A program made the position numbers and the translations under genes. Below the pieces are notes generated by a model. It searched no databases. It was not told the origin of the DNA and saw only the letters and a list, made by a program, of their open reading frames with translations. Source: Dyadobacter sp. 50-39 (GTDB lineage Bacteria; Bacteroidota; Bacteroidia; Cytophagales; Spirosomataceae). From it: a stretch of DNA of 64,000 bases. The stretch spans positions 868,001-932,000 of the forward strand of contig MKSR01000040.1 of NCBI GenBank assembly GCA_001898145.1, written 5' to 3'. Below, piece after piece: positions 1,931-10,387 of the stretch (the first letter of the stretch is position 1; every line of letters starts with the position of its first letter).

Positions 1931-3640
1931 ATGAGTTTGGAACCCTCAGAATCAAGAAAACAGCCCATCACACTTCCAAAATCGGGCACCGGTATACGCG
2001 GGCTCGACGAGATCACCGCAGGAGGATTGCCAGCCGGCAGGCCGACGCTGATCTGCGGTGCCGCGGGCTCGGGTAAAACCCTTTTCTCCATGGAATTCCT
2101 CGTGCATGGCGCCACGCAGTTTAACGAACCAGGCGTTTTCATGGCTTTTGAGGAAAAGGCCGAAGAGTTGGCAGTGAATGTGGCTTCGCTCGGGTTCGAT
2201 CTGAACGAACTCCAGCGGGAGGGCAAAATCCGGATTGACCACGTGCACGTTGAACGGAGCGAGATCGAAGAAACCGGTGAGTATAACCTGGATGGCCTGT
2301 TCATACGCCTGGCATACGCCATCGACAGCATTGGCGCCAAGCGCGTGGTGCTGGATACCATCGAAAGCCTTTTCGCAGGATTGACCAACCAGGCAGTGCT
2401 CCGGTCGGAACTCCGCAGGCTGTTTGAATGGCTCAAAGAAAAAGGTGTAACGACCATTATCACCGGTGAAAAAGGAGAAGCGTCGCTTACCCGGCAGGGA
2501 TTGGAAGAATATGTATCCGACTGCGTCATCCTGCTGGACCACCGGGTCGAAAACAAGATATCTACCCGCATTTTGCGGATCGTAAAATACCGCGGATCGA
2601 TCCATGGCACTAATGAATACCCCTTCCTGATCGACGAGGAAGGTATATCCGTATTGCCGGTGACCTCGCTCCAACTGAACCATTCTGTTTCATCGGAAAG
2701 AATGTCCTCCGGGATCCCGGCGCTGGACAAGATGCTGGGCGGCGAGGGCTTCTTCCGTGCCAGCAGCATACTGGTGTCCGGTACGGCCGGTACGGGGAAA
2801 ACTTCCATTGCAGGGAGTTTTGTCGACAAGACCTGCTCCGACGGGAAGCGCGCTATTTACTTCGCATTCGAAGAGTCGCCCAGGCAGATTGTTCGGAACA
2901 TGCAATCGATCAACATTGATCTTCAAAGCCATATCGACGCCGGGCTTTTGCAGTTCAGCGCAGCCAGGCCTACGCTCAACGGGCTGGAAATGCATTTGCT
3001 GAATATCGTGAAGCTGGTCGAAAAGTTCAATCCGAGTGTGGTCGTGCTGGATCCGATCAGCAACCTCATTACCGTAGGGTCAAACAGCGAGGTCAAGAGC
3101 GTGCTTACAAGGCTGATCGACTTCCTGCAGGGGCTGGGCATCACCGTCATGTTCACGGCCCTCACGCTCAACGACAACAGGACCGAACAAACCGACGACG
3201 GGGTTTCGTCGCTGGTGGATGTTTGGATACTGGTGCGGGACATCGAGTCGAACGGCGAACGCAACCGCGGGTTGTATGTCATGAAATCGCGGGGAATGAA
3301 GCATTCCAACCAGGTTAGGGAGTTTGTGATTACCGACCAAGGCCTCAAACTGGTGGAGGTATTCCTTGGCCCCGAGGGCGTACTCACCGGCTCGGCCCGG
3401 GAAACGCAGCAGCTGCTGGAAAAAACATCCGAAGCCCTCCGCGACCACGCGGTGTCGCGTAAAGACCGCGAAATTGAAAGGAAGAGATTCGTCCTGGAAT
3501 CGAAAATCGCTTCGCTCAAAGAAGAATTCGAGTCATTACAGGAAGAACTTAATAAAAGTTATATCGAAGACGAGCTCAAAAAGAGCATTATGGACGACAA
3601 CCGCAGAGAACTTACCCGCAAGCGGGACGACCTGCTTTAA
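1931..3640 (+). CDS. kaiC: KaiC-like double-domain RecA ATPase
   Basis: This 569-residue protein has two tandem KaiC/RecA domains. CI has Walker A GAAGSGKT at residues 43-50 and the catalytic Glu pair at 74-75 (AFEEKAEEL). CII has Walker A GTAGTGKT at 284-291 and Glu pair 314-315 (AFEESPRQ). Walker B strands are RVVLDTIES and VVVLDPISN. The segment TDDGVSSLVD lines up with the cyanobacterial CII phosphosite region, placing Thr421, Ser426 and Ser427 at the T426/S431/T432 positions. From about residue 488 to the end the sequence is a charged, heptad-like coiled coil of about 80 residues, much longer than the cyanobacterial tail. In-frame ATGs exist at 1805 and 1889, but 1805 lies in a terminator hairpin, while 1931 is preceded by AGGAA at suitable spacing. 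Two kaiB genes and a histidine kinase follow with gaps of 1 to 9 bases, so this is one operon. Known role in cyanobacteria: ATP-driven autokinase/phosphatase clock protein. The role here is inferred only as a KaiC-family timing or stress-signalling ATPase. Confidence 0.93.
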   Translation: MSLEPSESRKQPITLPKSGTGIRGLDEITAGGLPAGRPTLICGAAGSGKTLFSMEFLVHGATQFNEPGVFMAFEEKAEELAVNVASLGFDLNELQREGKIRIDHVHVERSEIEETGEYNLDGLFIRLAYAIDSIGAKRVVLDTIESLFAGLTNQAVLRSELRRLFEWLKEKGVTTIITGEKGEASLTRQGLEEYVSDCVILLDHRVENKISTRILRIVKYRGSIHGTNEYPFLIDEEGISVLPVTSLQLNHSVSSERMSSGIPALDKMLGGEGFFRASSILVSGTAGTGKTSIAGSFVDKTCSDGKRAIYFAFEESPRQIVRNMQSINIDLQSHIDAGLLQFSAARPTLNGLEMHLLNIVKLVEKFNPSVVVLDPISNLITVGSNSEVKSVLTRLIDFLQGLGITVMFTALTLNDNRTEQTDDGVSSLVDVWILVRDIESNGERNRGLYVMKSRGMKHSNQVREFVITDQGLKLVEVFLGPEGVLTGSARETQQLLEKTSEALRDHAVSRKDREIERKRFVLESKIASLKEEFESLQEELNKSYIEDELKKSIMDDNRRELTRKRDDLL

Positions 3641-3649
3641 CAACCCGTT

Positions 3650-3943
3650 ATGGAAGAAGTAAAAGAAGACATTTGGGAGCTCAGGCTGTATGTTGCCGGA
3701 AAAACCGCCCGGTCGGTGGCTGCGCTTGCCAACCTGAAAAAGTACTGCGAAGAGCATCTGAAAGATAAGTATGTGATAGAGGTTATCGACCTGCTCGTGC
3801 ACCCGCAACTAGCGGAAGGTGACCAGATTCTGGCCATTCCTACATTGGTTAAGAAAGTACCCGAGCCGATCCGCAAGATTATCGGAGACCTTTCCAACGA
3901 GGAAAAAGTACTGGTAGGACTTAACATTCGCCCGGCAAAATAA
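3650..3943 (+). CDS. kaiB: KaiB-like protein, copy 1
   Basis: A 97-residue KaiB-family thioredoxin-like protein. The core [16 protein letters not shown] is followed by [39 protein letters not shown], which closely follows the canonical KaiB pattern of YVAG, the PQLAE loop, PTL, and the proline-containing fold-switch segment before the IGDLS strand. In cyanobacteria KaiB switches fold and binds the CI ring of phosphorylated KaiC; a similar partnership with the upstream kaiC product is likely. It starts 9 bases after the kaiC stop. This copy is the more canonical of the two. Confidence 0.93.
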
Positions 3944-3948
3944 ATCAG

Positions 3949-4275
3949 ATGCTTGAAGGAATACACCAAAACCAGGATTGGGACGATAGTGACGAAGCGG
4001 ACAACCACTTCGAGCTGAGTCTATATATTGCCGGTGCTTCCTCCAACTCCATCCGCGCTGTGGCCAACCTCAGGGAAATTTGCGAACAACACCTCAAAGA
4101 TCGCTACACGCTCAGGGTGATCGACGTCCATCAGGAAAAGTCGCTCGCCTCCCGGGAGCAGCTCGTCGCATTGCCGCTGCTGGTCAAATCCAGGCCCTAT
4201 CCCGAGCGAAGAATGATCGGCGATATGTCGGACACGCAGAAAGTTTTGAAGGGTCTTGGGTTATCAGGTGAATGA
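3949..4275 (+). CDS. kaiB: KaiB-like protein, copy 2
   Basis: A 108-residue second KaiB-family protein, 5 bases after the first. It has an acidic N-terminal extension of about 20 residues before the core FELSLYIAGASSNSIRAV, then LRVIDVHQEKSLASREQLVALPLLVKSRPYPERRMIGDMSD. It keeps the YIAG start, the IGD strand and the prolines around the fold-switch region, but has PLL where KaiB usually has PTL and lacks the PQLAE loop. The divergence suggests a different partner or role from copy 1. The N-terminal domain of the kinase SasA is also KaiB-like, so a free KaiB-like unit next to a kinase could replace that domain by association; this is inference. Its stop is 1 base before the kinase ATG. Confidence 0.9.
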   Translation: MLEGIHQNQDWDDSDEADNHFELSLYIAGASSNSIRAVANLREICEQHLKDRYTLRVIDVHQEKSLASREQLVALPLLVKSRPYPERRMIGDMSDTQKVLKGLGLSGE

Positions 4276-4276
4276 T

Positions 4277-5566
4277 ATGAGCGATTCGAAAACTTACGAC
4301 CAGCTCCTGAGGGAGAATGCGGAGCTGACCCGGCGACTGGAAGATGCTACCGACATGATAGACGCCATCCGCAGCGGACAAGTTGACGCGCTCGTCGTCC
4401 ATGACGGCGACGGAGGTCACCAGCTTTACACCCTCAAAACCGCCGACCACTCTTACCGCCTTTTCATCGAGAAAATGAATGAAGGGGCCGTAACCCTCAA
4501 TGAGGACGGCATTATCCTCTATGCCAATTCCCGGTTTGGGTCCATGCTCGGGGCAACGCTCTCCGCCATTGTCGGACAGACATTCAAATCGTTTGTTTCC
4601 GCCGATTGCCAGCTCATGTTCAGGGATGTGTTCAGAAAGGCCTGGCACGAGGATGTCCAGATCGAGGTCAAGGTTTGCCGCGAGAATGAAACGGTGCCCT
4701 GCCAGCTCTCCCTCACGGTGCTGCAACTGGACGAAGGGCCTGCGCTCAGCGTGATTGTTACCGACCTCACTTATCAAAAGAATATCCAGCGGCTGCTGAA
4801 AGAAAACAACCAGCGGCTCACCGTCGCCAATGCGGAGCTGGAAGCCAGTAATCACGACCTGCAGCAGTTCGCGTCCATTGCCTCCCACGACCTTCAGGAG
4901 CCCCTGAGGAAGATATTGATTTTTGCCAATATGATCCGGGACCGGCATTCGCAGGATCTTCCTGCCGAAAGCCGGAAATACCTCGACAAGATTATCTCGT
5001 CTTCGCAACGGATGCGTTCGATGGCGTCCGACATACTGAATTACTCCGAACTATCCACCAATGCCCAGTCCTTCGATGAGGTAAACCTGGAAGCGGTGGT
5101 AGCCGAAATCCTGGACGACTACGAACTGCTGTTACAGGAACGCAGCGCGGAAGTGATTGTGGAGGAGCTGCCCGTGATCGAAGGAAACCGCGGACAGATC
5201 AAACAGGTGTTCCAAAATTTAATCAGTAACTCCATTAAATTTTCCCGGCCCGAAACACCTCCTGTAATCCGGATATTTTGTGAGCCGGAGTATGCTGGTG
5301 CGGGCGACGAAAATGAGCTTGCATTGTGCCACATCATCGTCACCGACAATGGCATCGGCTTCGAGAAAGAATATCAGGAAAGGATCTTCTCACTTTTCGA
5401 ACGGTTAAATAATAAGGACAAATACGAAGGATCGGGTATCGGACTATCCATCACCAAAAAAATCATTGAGCGCCATCACGGGAAAATCGCTGCCGAGAGC
5501 ACCCCGGGAGAGGGCGCACGCTTCACCATCAGCCTCCCTTTCAGACAACCCAACGGCATTGCCTGA
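4277..5566 (+). CDS. PAS-domain sensor histidine kinase of the kai operon
   Basis: A 429-residue cytosolic kinase with no signal peptide or membrane segment. An N-terminal helix (about 1-50) precedes a PAS domain (about 56-170, beginning YRLFIEKMNEGAVTL), then a coiled coil, then the HisKA dimerisation helix with phospho-acceptor His204 in IASHDLQEPLRKI. The HATPase_c domain shows the N box NLISNSIKFS, DNGIGF and GSGIGLSITKK. No receiver domain is attached, so an unlinked response regulator must exist elsewhere. ATG 4277 is chosen over an in-frame TTG at 4256 because AGGTGA sits just upstream and the ATG follows the kaiB stop by 1 base. By position it is the likely output or input kinase of the Kai module, analogous to SasA/CikA; this is inferred from context. 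Confidence 0.88.
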   Translation: MSDSKTYDQLLRENAELTRRLEDATDMIDAIRSGQVDALVVHDGDGGHQLYTLKTADHSYRLFIEKMNEGAVTLNEDGIILYANSRFGSMLGATLSAIVGQTFKSFVSADCQLMFRDVFRKAWHEDVQIEVKVCRENETVPCQLSLTVLQLDEGPALSVIVTDLTYQKNIQRLLKENNQRLTVANAELEASNHDLQQFASIASHDLQEPLRKILIFANMIRDRHSQDLPAESRKYLDKIISSSQRMRSMASDILNYSELSTNAQSFDEVNLEAVVAEILDDYELLLQERSAEVIVEELPVIEGNRGQIKQVFQNLISNSIKFSRPETPPVIRIFCEPEYAGAGDENELALCHIIVTDNGIGFEKEYQERIFSLFERLNNKDKYEGSGIGLSITKKIIERHHGKIAAESTPGEGARFTISLPFRQPNGIA

Positions 5567-5677: not shown

Positions 5678-5875
5678 ATGAAACAAAATGTACTTGAAGT
5701 GCATACCCACCAACAGGAAAACGAAGACGAGGAATTAGGCCTGTACCTGCATGGCCTCGTTCAGGACACCGGGCGGGAACAGGCATTTATCCTCGCCTTG
5801 GTAGCGGTTACCGTTCTGGCCGGAATACTGCTGGTCGGAGTCGGTTTGTATTTGGGCATCTTCTGGGGAATATGA
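5678..5875 (+). CDS. Small single-span membrane protein
   Basis: A 65-residue protein with a polar, acidic N-terminal half (residues 1-35, rich in Glu, Asp and Gln) and one strongly hydrophobic segment at about 37-62 (FILALVAVTVLAGILLVGVGL). No family is recognised. It lies 111 bases after the histidine kinase on the same strand, so it may be the last gene of the kai operon or have its own promoter. The codon use resembles the neighbours, and no competing frame in this stretch is better. Confidence 0.55.
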   Translation: MKQNVLEVHTHQQENEDEELGLYLHGLVQDTGREQAFILALVAVTVLAGILLVGVGLYLGIFWGI

Positions 5876-5922: not shown

Positions 5923-6675
5923 ATGCTTATGATCAATTCGCTTCTATTGAAACCTTTCGGACTGCAAGTTTCCAGAATTAAAAAGGAAGAAAAGTTCACC
6001 GATGACGAAACGTTCCTTGCCTTGTACGAGCGCTGCCGGCCATACACTATGACTTCCATCGAGCGCATGTACGCGCTGTTCAATGCGGTAAAATATGTGG
6101 TTAAGAACAACATCCCCGGCGACTTTGTGGAATGCGGGGTCTGGCGCGGCGGAAGCTCGATGATGACCGCCCTTACCCTGCTGCATTTGGGCAGCACCGA
6201 CAGGCATCTCTTCCTTTACGACACCTTCGAGGGAATGTCCGAGCCTACGGAGCACGACAAGACATTCCGCGGGGAGGGTGCAGATTTGTTGATGGAAAAA
6301 GGTGCCGATCATAAAGAAACCTCCGTATGGTGCCTGGCCGATATCCATGACGTTCAGCAAAACATGGGTATCACCAACTATCCGGCAGCCAACATTCACT
6401 ACGTAAAAGGAAAGGTTGAAGACACCATTCCGAGCACCCTGCCGGCCAACGGCATCACGCTGCTGCGCCTCGATACCGACTGGTACGAATCCACCGCGCA
6501 CGAGCTGCGCCACCTATACCCTATCCTGGCCGTATCCGGCGTGCTCATCATCGACGATTACGGACACTGGGACGGCTGCAAAAAGGCTGTGGATGAATAC
6601 TTTGGAAACAAGCCGCTTCTGCTTAACCGGATAGATTATACCGGAAGAATCGCGGTGAAATCGCAAGCTGTGTAA
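5923..6675 (+). CDS. TylF/MycF-type O-methyltransferase
   Basis: A 250-residue protein of the TylF (macrocin O-methyltransferase) family of SAM-dependent, metal-assisted methyltransferases. The SAM-binding segment is GDFVECGVWRGGSSMM, followed by LFLYDTFEGM, then RLDTDWYEST and LIIDDYGHWDGCKKAVDEY, where the acidic residues of the family's metal site lie. In Bacteroidota such enzymes are usually found with glycan or surface-polysaccharide genes, and here a glycosyltransferase, a second methyltransferase and a flippase follow. The likely role is methylation of a sugar in a surface glycan; the substrate is unknown. Confidence 0.85.
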   Translation: MLMINSLLLKPFGLQVSRIKKEEKFTDDETFLALYERCRPYTMTSIERMYALFNAVKYVVKNNIPGDFVECGVWRGGSSMMTALTLLHLGSTDRHLFLYDTFEGMSEPTEHDKTFRGEGADLLMEKGADHKETSVWCLADIHDVQQNMGITNYPAANIHYVKGKVEDTIPSTLPANGITLLRLDTDWYESTAHELRHLYPILAVSGVLIIDDYGHWDGCKKAVDEYFGNKPLLLNRIDYTGRIAVKSQAV

Positions 6676-6719
6676 GCTTTGCCGTCAAGAAATCCGGTAG
6701 GTGTGAATGCAGGGGAGAT

Positions 6720-7859
6720 TTACGACAATCCCGCAAACACCGACCGGATTTTTGTTTCCATCGCGTCGGCGCTGAAATGGGCCACTACTGTTTTACGTGC
6801 CGCCACCCCTAACCTTCTTCTCAGGTCAGGGTCCCGGATTAACTTTTCCAGTGCGGCCGCGAGCCCTTCATTATCCCGCTCCCCTACCAGTAACCCGTTT
6901 TCCCCATCCTGAATGGCTTGCGGGATTCCGGCGTGATAGGTAGAAACTACCGGCTTTTCCATGCTCATCGCTTCCAGGATCGAGTTGGGCAAACCTTCCA
7001 TATCTCCCTGATCGTCCGTCCGGCTGTTGAGCACATAAATGTCGGCGTCCTTCATATGCTGGTTCACTATCTCATGTGCCTTCGAACCCAACAATACTAC
7101 CTTTTCGCCCAGATTCAGCCGGGCCACCAGTTCCCGGCAGGCTTCCATTTCCGGTCCGTCGCCGATGATCCGCAGTTCGAGTTCGGGATGGCGGCCGCAA
7201 AGCGCACCGAATGCCTGTATGAGGTCTGGGACGCCCTTTTTGGGTACGAGCCGGCCCACGTGTTGGATGACGACCTTCGCGCGTTCGGGCGTATGCGAGG
7301 GGACGAACTTCCGCTCGTCGGTACCATAGGGAATCAGGTGCACCTTGCCGGCGAACGGTTGCAGGCCAAGGGTATCCATGAAATGCGGGCTCACGATGAT
7401 CACAGCCTTTGCATAGGCGATCACTTCGCGGATTCCGTCGGCGTATTCCTGGTTGTTCAGCATGGCCGGTGCCGCGTCGATCCCGTGAAAGCTCACCACC
7501 ATCGGGATGCCCAGCTTCTTGGCAACCGGCAGCATTTCGATTCCCGATGGACCAAAGTGGGCATGGATGACATCGATATGGCGGCTTTGAAGCAGCTTCG
7601 CTACCAGGGCGCGGTTTTGGAAACTCAGCTTGTAGCCCTGGCCGGCCACCTTGCGCAGTACTTTGGTGATGAGTTTATCAAAAAAGCCCCTATAATGCAC
7701 CAAAAGCTCTTTTTTAACAGCGATCGGAAATTTATCTTCATTTTCATACCGGTAAGTCAGCATGGTGACATCATGGCTCCGGGACAGTCCCAGCACCTGA
7801 CGATGGACGAATGTTTCACTCAGCGGGAAAAATGATTGATTGAATACCAGAATGTTCAT
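6720..7859 (-). CDS. GT4-family glycosyltransferase
   Basis: A 379-residue GT-B fold glycosyltransferase. The N-terminal acceptor domain includes AHFGPSGIEMLPVAKKLG and VSFHGID. The C-terminal donor domain includes HVGRLVPKKGVPDLI, IIGDGPEME and the E-x7-E signature in EGLPNSILEAMSMEKPV. The start at 7859 (MNILVFNQSFFPLSETF) is the natural N-terminus of the fold; the frame is open upstream but that part is not family-like. It resembles colanic-acid-type (WcaL-like) transferases. It is convergent with the TylF gene (45 bases between stops) and divergent from the methyltransferase at 8160. The likely role is cytoplasmic transfer of a sugar to a lipid-linked glycan. Confidence 0.87.
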   Translation of the reverse strand: MNILVFNQSFFPLSETFVHRQVLGLSRSHDVTMLTYRYENEDKFPIAVKKELLVHYRGFFDKLITKVLRKVAGQGYKLSFQNRALVAKLLQSRHIDVIHAHFGPSGIEMLPVAKKLGIPMVVSFHGIDAAPAMLNNQEYADGIREVIAYAKAVIIVSPHFMDTLGLQPFAGKVHLIPYGTDERKFVPSHTPERAKVVIQHVGRLVPKKGVPDLIQAFGALCGRHPELELRIIGDGPEMEACRELVARLNLGEKVVLLGSKAHEIVNQHMKDADIYVLNSRTDDQGDMEGLPNSILEAMSMEKPVVSTYHAGIPQAIQDGENGLLVGERDNEGLAAALEKLIRDPDLRRRLGVAARKTVVAHFSADAMETKIRSVFAGLS

Positions 7860-8006
7860 TTTCTTGATAACTGCGGCATTGCGCCGGCTTGAATAGTGTG
7901 TAAAATACGATATACCGAAGAGGCTTCGATACAAGTTGTTAATTATGAGCGGCTAAATCCGGCGAAATACCGTCCCGGCTCCCGATCCGTTTACTCACCG
8001 GCGAAT

Positions 8007-8026
8007 ACCGGTTAACGTAAACCGGT
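8007..8026. promoter_or_regulatory. 20-bp inverted repeat in a divergent promoter region
   Basis: Arms ACCGGTT (8007-8013) and AACCGGT (8020-8026) are perfect inverted copies around a 6-base centre. It lies in the 300-base gap between the divergent glycosyltransferase (start 7859) and methyltransferase (start 8160), where an operator for both would be placed. The rest of the gap shows no gene. Confidence 0.35.
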
Positions 8027-8159
8027 CAAATATACAATGGCCGATCTGCAATTCGCCCAAAAAGAGTTATAAATTGCAGCCTCGGTGGTTATCGTTCCGG
8101 CAATCCCGGATACCGCCCGCCAATCCATTTATCTACAAACACTATACTTTATTTTTAGC

Positions 8160-8876
8160 ATGACTGAAAGAGAACCAGGAGTTGAGCGCTTGTATCCGTC
8201 GATATTCGGAAGAATGGCAACCCGTTACTATTACCTTCGCCAACTTCGCCAGGCTATTGAGGATGTAATCAAGAATTTCGTAGCGCGCGACTCAAGAAAT
8301 TTAACACTGGCAGATTACGGTTGCGGAAACCGGCCGTATGAGTCACTGGTAGCACCCTACGTTCACAAATACATCGGCATTGACCTCCCGGGTAACAAGG
8401 TCGCCGACATTCTGATTTCTCCCGAGGGACGGATCGAGCTTCCCGATGAAAGCCTCGACGTGGTACTGTCCACCCAGGCGCTCGAACACGTCGTAAATCC
8501 CACTGAATACCTGAAAGAAGCACTGAGGGTACTCAAAACAGACGGGCAGCTCATACTCAGCACACACGGCTACTGGATGTTCCACCCCGACCCGACCGAT
8601 TTCTGGCGCTGGACGTCCACCGGATTGAAAAAAGTAGTGACCGATTCCGGTTTCGAAGTAGTCCACTTCCGGGGAATCATCGGCCGCTCGGCAATGGGCC
8701 TTCAACTTTTTCAGGACGGATTCACTTTCGCCCTCCCGCCGTTCCTCCGCCCTGTCCTGGCCCTTATTTTTCAGCCCCTCATTTACCTGTTCGATCAGAT
8801 CCCGTCGCAGGGCGGCAAGGACAAGGATGCCTGTACCTATATCCTCGTAGCGAAAAAGAACGCTCCGAAATCTTAG
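8160..8876 (+). CDS. Class I SAM-dependent methyltransferase
   Basis: A 238-residue methyltransferase of the Methyltransf_11 type. Motif I is LADYGCGNRPY, the acidic end of beta-2 is YIGIDLPG, motif II is VVLSTQALEHV, and post-motif is LRVLKTDGQLILSTHG followed by the YWMFHPDPTDFWRWT block common in glycan-linked methyltransferases. ATG 8160 is preferred over an in-frame GTG/ATG-type start at 8085, because the extra 25 residues are not family-like. The C-terminal third contains a hydrophobic stretch (FALPPFLRPVLALIF) that may touch the membrane. It is followed after 47 bases by a flippase, supporting a role in surface glycan modification. Confidence 0.82.
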   Translation: MTEREPGVERLYPSIFGRMATRYYYLRQLRQAIEDVIKNFVARDSRNLTLADYGCGNRPYESLVAPYVHKYIGIDLPGNKVADILISPEGRIELPDESLDVVLSTQALEHVVNPTEYLKEALRVLKTDGQLILSTHGYWMFHPDPTDFWRWTSTGLKKVVTDSGFEVVHFRGIIGRSAMGLQLFQDGFTFALPPFLRPVLALIFQPLIYLFDQIPSQGGKDKDACTYILVAKKNAPKS

Positions 8877-8923
8877 TCTCATATTACGTAGTCCCGAAGG
8901 GCATGTAATAAAACTTACAGACA

Positions 8924-10387
8924 ATGCGGGTTGATCAGGAAATCAAGAGGGGGACTTTTTTTGTTTTCATATCCAAATACAGCAACATACTCATCGGGCT
9001 GGTCATCAATTCGATACTGGCCCGGTTCCTGTCTCCCAATGAGTACGGCATCGTCGGCGTCGTCACCGTATTCATTACCTTTTTCAGCATTCTGGGCGAC
9101 ATTGGCATCGGTACGGCGATCGTCCAGAACCGCGACCTGACCCCCAAAGACATTTCCGATATTTTCAAAATGTCGATCGTACTGAGCATCTGTCTCGGGC
9201 TATCGTTCTACCTGTTGTCCTACGGCATCGCCTGGTTTTACGAAAGCGATACGTACGTTCTGATCGGGCAGTTGCTGGCGGTGAGCGTGTTTTTCAGCTC
9301 CTTGTCCGGCGTGCCGAGGAGCCTGTTAATGAAAAACAAGTCATTCAAGTTGCTCGGCGGGATCGACATCATTGCAAGCGTCACCACGGGAATTCTGGTG
9401 GTATTTCTCGCCGTGAGAGGTTACAGCTACTACTCGATCGTATGGCGCTCGATCCTCTCCAACCTGATGGCCTGTGTCATGTGCTTCTATTTTTCGAAAC
9501 TCAGATTGATGGGAGGCTTCGGCTTCGGCGGGTTCAGGAAGATTGCCCGGTACTCGGGCTTTCAGTTTGCATTCAATTTCATCAACTACTTTTCCCGTAA
9601 CCTGGACAACATCCTGATCGGCAAATTCATGGGTAACCAAAACCTGGGGATTTACAGCCAGTCCTACCAGCTCATGATGTATCCGGTGGCAAACCTCACG
9701 CACGTGATCACGCCCGTGCTCCATCCCGTGCTAGCGCGGTTTGTGGATCAGCCCAAAATCATTTTTGAAGAGTACCTGAAAGTGGTCAATATCCTCGCCA
9801 TGCTCGGAGTGCCGATCTCGCTCTTCGTCTTCTTTTCATCGAGCGAAGTCGTGTACCTGGTGCTGGGCTCCAAATGGATGGGCGTAGCGCCCGTGTTACA
9901 GATTTTCGGCGCGTCCATCTGGCTGCAAATGGTCAATTCCAGCGGCGGGGCAATCTTCCAGTCGATGGGCCGCACGGATATGCTGTTCAAAATGGGGATA
10001 CTAAGTACATTCACCACCATTTCCGCGACGCTGCTCGGCATTCTCTACTATCAATCCCTCACCCTTACGGCCCTGTGTATTTCGATCGCGATCGCGACGA
10101 ATTTCGTCATCGTGTACTATGTACTGATCGACCGGATCCTGAGCAGCAGTTTCATGAGGTTCCTGAAAGTGATCGCGCAGCACATGAAGCTGGCCGCAGT
10201 ATTGGCTTTGCTGCTGTACCTGACGCAGGTTTTCGCCCCATTCACGCAGGATAATGCAGGGATGATCTACCTGTTCCTGCTCAAATCGGCGATTACAGGC
10301 ATTACCTTCCTGGCATTTCATTTCGAACGGGTGATGGGCACGGCCAGAAAAGTACTGGCCAGTGTGTCGGTCAGGATGAAGTCGTAG
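8924..10387 (+). CDS. Wzx-type polysaccharide/O-antigen flippase
   Basis: A 487-residue polytopic membrane protein of the MATE-like MOP superfamily (polysaccharide_synt, WzxC-like). The N-terminus ISKYSNILIGLVINSILAR with LSPNEYG is characteristic, and about 12 to 14 hydrophobic segments follow. The Wzx family flips undecaprenyl-linked oligosaccharide units across the inner membrane. It completes a minimal glycan set with the methyltransferases and GT4 gene nearby. No polymerase or initiating glycosyltransferase is in the window. The last 17 bases overlap the 3' end of the convergent gene at 10371-11342. Confidence 0.87.
   Translation: MRVDQEIKRGTFFVFISKYSNILIGLVINSILARFLSPNEYGIVGVVTVFITFFSILGDIGIGTAIVQNRDLTPKDISDIFKMSIVLSICLGLSFYLLSYGIAWFYESDTYVLIGQLLAVSVFFSSLSGVPRSLLMKNKSFKLLGGIDIIASVTTGILVVFLAVRGYSYYSIVWRSILSNLMACVMCFYFSKLRLMGGFGFGGFRKIARYSGFQFAFNFINYFSRNLDNILIGKFMGNQNLGIYSQSYQLMMYPVANLTHVITPVLHPVLARFVDQPKIIFEEYLKVVNILAMLGVPISLFVFFSSSEVVYLVLGSKWMGVAPVLQIFGASIWLQMVNSSGGAIFQSMGRTDMLFKMGILSTFTTISATLLGILYYQSLTLTALCISIAIATNFVIVYYVLIDRILSSSFMRFLKVIAQHMKLAAVLALLLYLTQVFAPFTQDNAGMIYLFLLKSAITGITFLAFHFERVMGTARKVLASVSVRMKS

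Follow-up and report, generated by a model that had tools for sequence, protein, structure and literature searches.

This report concerns a kai operon in a 64,000-nucleotide stretch of DNA (the window) from Dyadobacter sp. 50-39 (assembly GCA_001898145.1, contig MKSR01000040.1, positions 868,001 to 932,000 of the forward strand). Four complete genes on one strand, separated by gaps of 9, 5 and 1 bases, encode KaiC, two KaiB proteins (called KaiB-a and KaiB-b here) and a PAS histidine kinase (Table 1), and this arrangement, recognized in the initial annotation, was confirmed by the coordinates and by Pfam and NCBIfam matches. The operon type itself is known, whereas the opposite-fold reading of the KaiB pair and the Kai-linked N terminus of the kinase are new. 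The Pfam scores were 364.6 bits for the KaiC ATPase domain (in two stretches), 94.0 and 78.5 bits for KaiB-a and KaiB-b (cut-off 27), and 88.1, 47.5 and 38.5 bits for HATPase_c, HisKA and PAS_9 of the kinase. The kaiC product also scored 740 bits, relative to a cut-off of 408, with the NCBIfam model PRK09302.1, "circadian clock protein KaiC".

Table 1. Genes and features of the kai operon, in positions of the window
Feature	Position	Strand	Description
kaiC	1931-3640	+	569 aa, KaiC2 type; two RecA-like ATPase domains and C-terminal tail
Ser426-Ser427 codons of kaiC	3206..3211	+	Phosphorylation pair; equivalent to S413/S414 of R. sphaeroides KaiC
KaiC C-terminal extension, residues 491-569	3401..3637	+	Aligns to residue 548 with the R. 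sphaeroides tail
kaiB-a	3650-3943	+	97 aa; predicted ground-state (switchable) KaiB
kaiB-b	3949-4275	+	108 aa; predicted fold-switched (thioredoxin-like); E86 and K101 in place of I and V
PAS histidine kinase	4277-5566	+	429 aa; PAS, HisKA and HATPase_c domains
Kinase N-terminal module, residues 1-72	4277..4492	+	No Pfam family over residues 1-58
HisKA phosphoacceptor domain, residues 195-259	4859..5053	+	Pfam
HATPase_c catalytic domain, residues 305-423	5189..5545	+	Pfam

Across the 7.7-Mb assembly that contains the window there were no matches to KaiA (PF07688), and Synechococcus elongatus, used as a control, alone gave a match. The KaiB family (PF07689) had two matches, kaiB-a and kaiB-b, each standalone; there was no SasA-type KaiB-kinase fusion among them, and the kinase itself had no KaiB match. 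Therefore, two features of the cyanobacterial KaiABC system, KaiA and a SasA bearing a fused KaiB-like domain, were not found here, as had been noted from the window itself. Of six KaiC-family matches in the genome, two were the domains of the operon KaiC, and the remaining four (21-35 bits) were spread over three other open frames.

The best match of KaiC in the PDB was the KaiC of Rhodobacter (Cereibacter) sphaeroides (8dba, 568 aa), with 643 bits over residues 15-548, an alignment that extends into the C-terminal tail; the next other KaiC scored 374 bits. The protein has two ATPase domains with a Walker A motif and a Glu-Glu pair in each, a Ser-Ser rather than a Ser-Thr pair (the rule given in PMC5520375 and PMC10076222), and a tail about 50 aa longer than in other KaiC clades (569 aa, compared with about 519-527 aa in most other full-length KaiC chains listed). 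For comparison, we used 80 named loci (L numbers), the best 80 of 453 relatives from a KaiB-b alignment scan, all of them Bacteroidota by name; the approximate KaiC length in these was 566-589 aa. In the window plus these loci, the two positions of the serine pair were S in 80/81 and 81/81 aligned KaiCs, and both CI and CII retained their Glu-Glu pair in all 80 aligned rows having letters. Two serines and a longer tail are described as hallmarks of the KaiC2 group (PMC10076222), and, with KaiA absent, the sequence places this KaiC in the known KaiA-independent KaiC2 type. According to the same source, an exposed A loop allows KaiA-free autophosphorylation of the R. sphaeroides KaiC, and its tail builds a dodecamer, the removal of which scarcely alters the phosphorylation rate (PMC10076222). 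KaiA was indeed not found, but the oddity of its absence had been overstated, because this is expected for KaiC2 systems (PMC10076222).

The two KaiB proteins

The structures of the KaiB proteins were predicted with AlphaFold2 in two runs by the same method, each with the KaiB of the window and 20 orthologs from the named loci (21-row alignments). The KaiB-a model has the order E-H-E-H-H-E (strand 8-15, helix 20-36, strand 41-47, helices 63-66 and 72-84, strand 88-96), and the KaiB-b model the order E-H-E-H-E-E-H (strand 21-27, helix 32-48, strand 53-59, helix 64-70, strands 77-82 and 87-90, helix 96-102). The models were compared with solved structures using Foldseek, the matches being labeled as ground-state or fold-switched from entry titles and known structures. 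For KaiB-a, the first 17 rows were all ground-state KaiB, with query TM-scores (TMq) of 0.80-0.89, and a fold-switched KaiB appeared first at rank 18 (TMq 0.46). For KaiB-b, the first 11 rows were all fold-switched KaiB (TMq 0.61-0.72), with the Legionella pneumophila KaiB Lpp1115 (PDB 4kun) on top; the N-terminal domains of SasA (6x61 and 1t4y) were within the first 36 rows, and the first ground-state KaiB was at rank 42 (TMq 0.36). Opposite folds had been expected from the residues beforehand, and the models then agreed. Therefore, KaiB-a is predicted to adopt the ground-state fold when free, as in metamorphic KaiB, and KaiB-b the thioredoxin-like fold, as in Lpp1115, the KaiB-TV4 type and the SasA sensor.

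The residues in question are those of the R. sphaeroides KaiB at which a triple change (I68, V83 and N84) is reported to shift the protein from mostly ground state to mostly fold-switched (PMC10808063). KaiB-a has I74 and V89 at the positions of I68 and V83, where KaiB-b carries E86 and K101. These sites were counted in 55 KaiB-a and 62 KaiB-b proteins from the 80 loci plus those of the window, restricted to rows with an upstream Met and a length of 85-135 aa. KaiB-a was invariant, with I, V and G at sites 68, 83 and 84 in 56/56 rows each. In the 63 KaiB-b rows, site 68 was E in 48, Q in 11, K in 2, A in 1 and R in 1; site 83 was K in 43, R in 10, N in 4, S in 3, T in 2 and A in 1; and site 84 was G in 61, A in 1 and E in 1. 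A wider count without these filters, in which distant lineages were added and some genomes are doubled, gave I in 102 and V in 5 of 120 KaiB-a rows at site 68 and V in 112 at site 83; in 105 KaiB-b rows, site 68 was E or Q in 85 and V in 7, and site 83 was K or R in 84. KaiB-b is thus mostly polar or charged at two of the three fold-flipping sites. Lpp1115, which was solved in the thioredoxin-like fold, shares E at site 68 and has S at site 83.

The altered PTL motif attributed to KaiB-b proved to be real and family-wide: at R. sphaeroides position 59, KaiB-a had T in 119/120 rows, whereas the 105 KaiB-b rows had L in 85, M in 14, T in 5 and S in 1. The acidic N terminus, in contrast, is a tendency and not a distinction. 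A net acidity of at least 3 was found in the tails of 48/63 KaiB-b proteins, but also in 36/56 of KaiB-a, whose tails are shorter, and the acidic tail was therefore rejected as a mark of KaiB-b. Identification of KaiB-b as a SasA domain by sequence was also rejected, as the SasA profile gave 23.3 and 25.4 bits for the two KaiBs (cut-off 342).

In a tree of KaiB proteins, built from few columns and weak in its deep forks, most rows belonged to one of two clades, KaiB-a with 51 rows (support 100/95) and the core of KaiB-b with 44 rows (97/88), the latter covering several families. The single KaiBs of R. sphaeroides and rhizobia branched on the KaiB-a side. The initial description of two different KaiB proteins was correct. 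Two lone KaiBs with no adjoining kaiC, at L203 4468-4761 (a Hymenobacter plasmid) and L062 3666-3998, grouped with the second KaiBs; one of them sits on a plasmid carrying a MobV relaxase gene.

It might be supposed that the second KaiB is a passive duplicate, retained by chance and without a special role. Some lineages do lack it, as in L076 and L077, where the order is kaiC, kaiB-a and kinase, but this explanation is hardly credible in view of the breadth of the KaiB-b clade, the gene order kept in 76/80 loci selected by KaiB-b, and the ratio of nonsynonymous to synonymous substitution rates (dN/dS). The closest named loci were from Dyadobacter species, with 81-86% identity in KaiB-b, and relative to five Dyadobacter relatives dN/dS was 0.01-0.11 for the four genes and 0.03-0.11 for KaiB-b.

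The kinase module, gene order and distribution

The N-terminal module of the kinase has, roughly, the pattern L..EN.EL...L.EA...I.AIR.G.VDALVV....G..LYTL..AD..YR..IE.M.EGAV. A search for a solved structure gave only a weak match, starting at residue 59 (E 0.032). The module was found once in the genome of the window.

We evaluated its distribution in a family sample of 150 genomes and a phylum sample of 395 genomes (G numbers), using a model built from 11 Kai-linked versions that more distant free versions could escape. In the family sample, a KaiB match was present in 43/150 genomes and was over the cut-off in 41. The N-module occurred once each in exactly these 41 genomes and in 0/109 others, and no more than about 30 bases separated it from a KaiB match in 41/41. 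Two neighboring KaiB matches were found in 40 of the 41, one of which had a third elsewhere. The remaining genome, G104, had one partial KaiB with an internal stop (G104:C14:572495-572665), which adjoins a kinase N-module still inside an open frame of 431 aa. In the phylum sample, where up to 14 N-module candidates were scored per genome, a KaiB match was present in 39/395 genomes, over the cut-off in 37, and all 28 genomes with the N-module were among these 37. The module was at most 75 bases from KaiB in 26/28 and about 265 bases away in G279 and G382, both of which lack KaiB-b. The nine KaiB genomes without the module were G154, G163, G227, G236, G326, G333, G365, G406 and G519; G326 and G365 had partial KaiB matches only. 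These results indicate that the N-module is Kai-linked in the Bacteroidota searched.

A plasmid search with a single-sequence query found the module in three records, with kaiC-kaiB directly upstream in 3/3. This search was insensitive, as it missed Cereibacter and Falsirhodobacter, both of which have the motif by eye, and the Pararhizobium module as a plasmid query matched nothing besides itself; the plasmid result therefore rests on three records. One plasmid locus, L198 2735-6789 (Pararhizobium qamdonense, typed conjugative), has kaiC, two kaiB genes and an N-module protein annotated as a response regulator; its KaiC was the best plasmid match to that of the window (59% identity), a likeness that may point to transfer between phyla. 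The module was also recognized by eye in the kinases of the kai operons of R. sphaeroides and Falsirhodobacter. Similar stretches occur in other proteobacterial sensors, and for this reason we make no claim that the module is Kai-specific outside Bacteroidota. Viral contigs searched with KaiB-b as the query contained no relatives.

The module was found fused to HisKA kinases, a hybrid kinase, HWE-annotated kinases and an HD_5 domain. The last case, L063 3142-4314 (minus strand), combines the module and a PAS domain with HD_5 (HD-GYP-type), and its operon contains a single KaiB; output of this type may involve cyclic-di-GMP turnover. Loci L064 and L065 likewise encode an N-module protein without a kinase match.

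These one-KaiB operons bear on the possibility that KaiB-b is a dosage or mixed-ring modifier, sharing the CI sites with KaiB-a and tuning ATPase activity and dephosphorylation, while the kinase would read KaiC through the N-module alone. The presence of the module in operons with one KaiB, joined to a kinase or to the HD-GYP-type domain, is as this explanation would have it. However, in the loci classified by gene order, each KaiB-b that follows kaiC, where the downstream side can be viewed, precedes a module-bearing kinase gene (with broken frames in L111 and L146), and the predicted fold of KaiB-b is that of the SasA sensor domain. We therefore regard a modifier role as distinctly unlikely. 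The converse proposal, that KaiB-b is the sole link between kinase and KaiC, was rejected because the module also occurs in operons without KaiB-b.

A comparison of gene order in relatives found kaiC, kaiB-a, kaiB-b and kinase in this order on one strand in 76/80 named loci. The four exceptions were L113, which stops after kaiB-b; L146, with broken kinase frames; and L111 and L135 of Arcticibacter, which lack kaiB-a. The L111 kinase is split across two frames. Between kaiB-b and the kinase, the genes overlapped or were at most 10 bases apart in 77/78 loci with a scored gap. As the 80 loci were picked by KaiB-b, they are uninformative on the frequency of its loss. A further 40 loci beyond the named 80 were examined for gene order. 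Besides L076 and L077, they included L063-L065, in which kaiC and one kaiB are accompanied by a module protein that had no kinase match; L072 and L075, with kaiC and two KaiBs, neither scoring as KaiB-b; and L071 and L074, with kaiC and kaiB, in which the N-module was absent. In L076, about 245 bases without a KaiB separate kaiB-a from the kinase (3758-4001, minus strand), at the place that kaiB-b occupies in relatives, and L077 is alike. KaiBs without a kaiC in the stretch examined were also seen (e.g., L056, L058, L062 and L081). In L058 2884-7133 and L081 1094-5342, which are from one family, the KaiB gene is flanked on either side by a histidine kinase gene, the stretch examined contains no kaiC match, and one of the L058 kinases is a hybrid with two receiver stretches; such a KaiB may serve kinases directly.

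Receiver genes were sought within 1 kb of the module-bearing loci among 121 loci, in which some genomes occur twice. A single-domain receiver frame of at most 180 aa, on the same strand and at most 170 bases from the operon, was present in 34 loci, either 5′ of kaiC or 3′ of the kinase; in L126, L144 and L156, the receiver was on the opposite strand or within a larger frame. There was no receiver gene beside the operon among the scanned neighbors in the window. A Dyadobacter receiver used as a query gave 38 matches in the genome of the window, the best with only 40% identity, and so no cognate receiver can be named.

The 5′ neighbor of the operon is a PAP2 phosphatase gene. Directly 3′ of the kinase is a 65-aa frame (5678-5875) whose C-terminal half is hydrophobic and which matched neither Pfam nor NCBIfam. 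It is followed at 5923-10387 by a TylF-type methyltransferase, a group 1 glycosyltransferase, a second methyltransferase and a long flippase-like membrane frame, which are probably a surface polysaccharide cluster.

Operons of this kind were already known. In 2017, a group of Bacteroidetes was reported to encode only KaiB2- and KaiC2-like proteins (PMC5520375), a kinase or GGDEF/EAL gene is described as commonly next to kaiC-kaiB (PMC3164672), and KaiB and KaiC in one Dyadobacter were called rarely found among Bacteroidota (PMC11573002). The kaiC-kaiB-kinase set was real but less unusual than first thought, as a kaiC-kaiB-PAS/HK (histidine kinase) operon had been described in Rhodopseudomonas palustris and R. 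sphaeroides (PMC4794148). The R. sphaeroides KaiBC hourglass has the same Ser-Ser KaiC2 with a coiled-coil tail (643 bits) and the same gene order, its kinase has the same N-terminal motif by eye, and it is likewise without KaiA (PMC10076222). It differs in having one operon KaiB, of the KaiB-a type (I and V at sites 68 and 83), with no KaiB-b, a kinase annotated as HWE instead of HisKA, and a photosynthetic host. The proto-circadian system of Rhodopseudomonas palustris, compared by its published description only, has the same kaiC-B-PAS/HK operon but one KaiB (PMC4794148). The kaiCBB genes of Thiodictyon syntrophicum, the subject of the one paper found under that word in the open-licence literature, likewise comprise kaiC and two kaiB with an adjoining signaling gene, but this is an upstream diguanylate cyclase and not a kinase, and the comparison covers the gene set (PMC5944118). 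KaiB groups predicted in either fold have also been published, with operon pairs unmentioned in the part of that account consulted (PMC10808063). The open-licence literature searched contained no account of an opposite-fold tandem KaiB pair or of the kinase N-module, although prior notice of KaiB pairs in a Legionella operon paper or a 2010 review is possible.

A possible output route for a KaiA-free Kai system

The interpretation that we consider plausible, if not quite probable, is that the operon encodes a timer or energy-state switch that is built on a KaiA-independent KaiC2 and has a two-component, split SasA-like output. By analogy with the R. sphaeroides relative, KaiC would autophosphorylate at Ser426/Ser427 without KaiA and sense the ATP/ADP ratio. 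KaiB-a, predicted to be mostly in the ground state, would switch fold and, once ATP is hydrolyzed, bind the CI ring of KaiC and drive dephosphorylation. KaiB-b would be a duplicate held in the fold-switched thioredoxin-like state and, as it would already be fold-switched, would need no slow fold switch before binding. In cyanobacteria, SasA competes with fold-switched KaiB for one CI site (PMC6378743). KaiB-b may similarly act as a detached SasA-like sensor on the CI ring, compete with KaiB-a, and recruit or tune the kinase in the manner of SasA. The KaiB-like domain of SasA is fused to its kinase, whereas here kaiB-b lies one base before the kinase gene, unfused, and the kinase has its own N-module and PAS domain. 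The kinase would be recruited through this Kai-linked module and would hand phosphate to a receiver protein, a single-domain form of which is encoded beside the operon in many relatives.

The proposal in the initial annotation that KaiB-b stands in for the SasA sensor thus gains computed support from the predicted fold, the key residues and the conserved place before the kinase gene, but kaiC and the kinase stay together even where KaiB-b is absent. Since either KaiB can be lost while kaiC and the kinase persist, two separable roles fit better than an obligate pair.

Several observations weigh against the split-output interpretation. Concerning the fold, the AlphaFold2 confidence was moderate, with a mean predicted local distance difference test score (pLDDT) of 73.8 for KaiB-a and 73.5 for KaiB-b; the best of five models was viewed for each, and the KaiB predictions are alignment-dependent. 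The E and K of KaiB-b at sites 68 and 83 differ from the R and D that were tested, site 84 is mostly G in both KaiBs and so makes no difference between them, V occurs at site 68 in the 7/105 KaiB-b rows given above, and the SasA profile fails to separate KaiB-a from KaiB-b. In the tree, a wider 49-row KaiB-b group (adding L060-L062 and L068) was supported only at 93/52, and the distant second KaiBs L073, L078 and L079, classed as KaiB-b, branched outside the KaiB-b group; for these reasons, a single origin for all second KaiBs is not established. Concerning the operon, N-module kinases are also found beside a KaiB-a-type KaiB alone (L076 and L077, and Rhodobacter and rhizobia plasmids), so kaiC retains the module in operons that lack KaiB-b, and the association does not depend on KaiB-b; conversely, in L111 and L135 KaiB-b is the only KaiB match of the genome. 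Finally, the Legionella KaiB, which is of the switched type, reportedly does not bind its KaiC.

It is also conceivable, though rather unlikely, that the operon is a stress or energy switch with no timing, in which KaiB-b would be a thioredoxin-fold kinase partner not binding KaiC, and KaiC and KaiB-a would set a slow protective on/off state. Dyadobacter is a heterotroph without a direct photosynthetic ATP/ADP cycle, which is consistent with such a switch, and the Arcticibacter KaiB-b keeps its position before the kinase despite the missing KaiB-a. KaiB-b also resembles Lpp1115, reported to be implicated in stress response and not in rhythms (PMC10808063). However, KaiB-b remains in the kaiC operon, the phosphorylation sites and both catalytic pairs of KaiC are kept in nearly all rows, and the occurrence of the N-module without KaiB-b speaks for contact with KaiC or KaiB-a. 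A timer and a stress switch, both of which had been suggested at the outset, cannot be told apart from sequence.

The split-output interpretation can be extended to Bacteroidota in a form that we put forward as possible but doubtful. A duplication there would have split the two folds of metamorphic KaiB, with KaiB-a the switch or timer brake and KaiB-b locked as a detached SasA sensor, and these, together with the N-module on varied effectors (HisKA, HWE and hybrid kinases, and HD-GYP-type proteins), would be the missing output route of KaiA-free Kai systems.

The output route of Kai systems outside cyanobacteria is a standing question. KaiC stimulation of non-cyanobacterial SasA homologs has been argued to be very unlikely because those homologs have no KaiB-like domain (PMC5520375). 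The operon described here is real, conserved and of a known kind, and the new reading of its second KaiB and kinase N terminus supplies two candidate links, a stand-alone KaiB predicted to be fold-switched and a Kai-linked kinase module. If this reading is true, the operon would offer a natural example of a metamorphic protein whose two folds have been assigned by evolution to adjacent genes.

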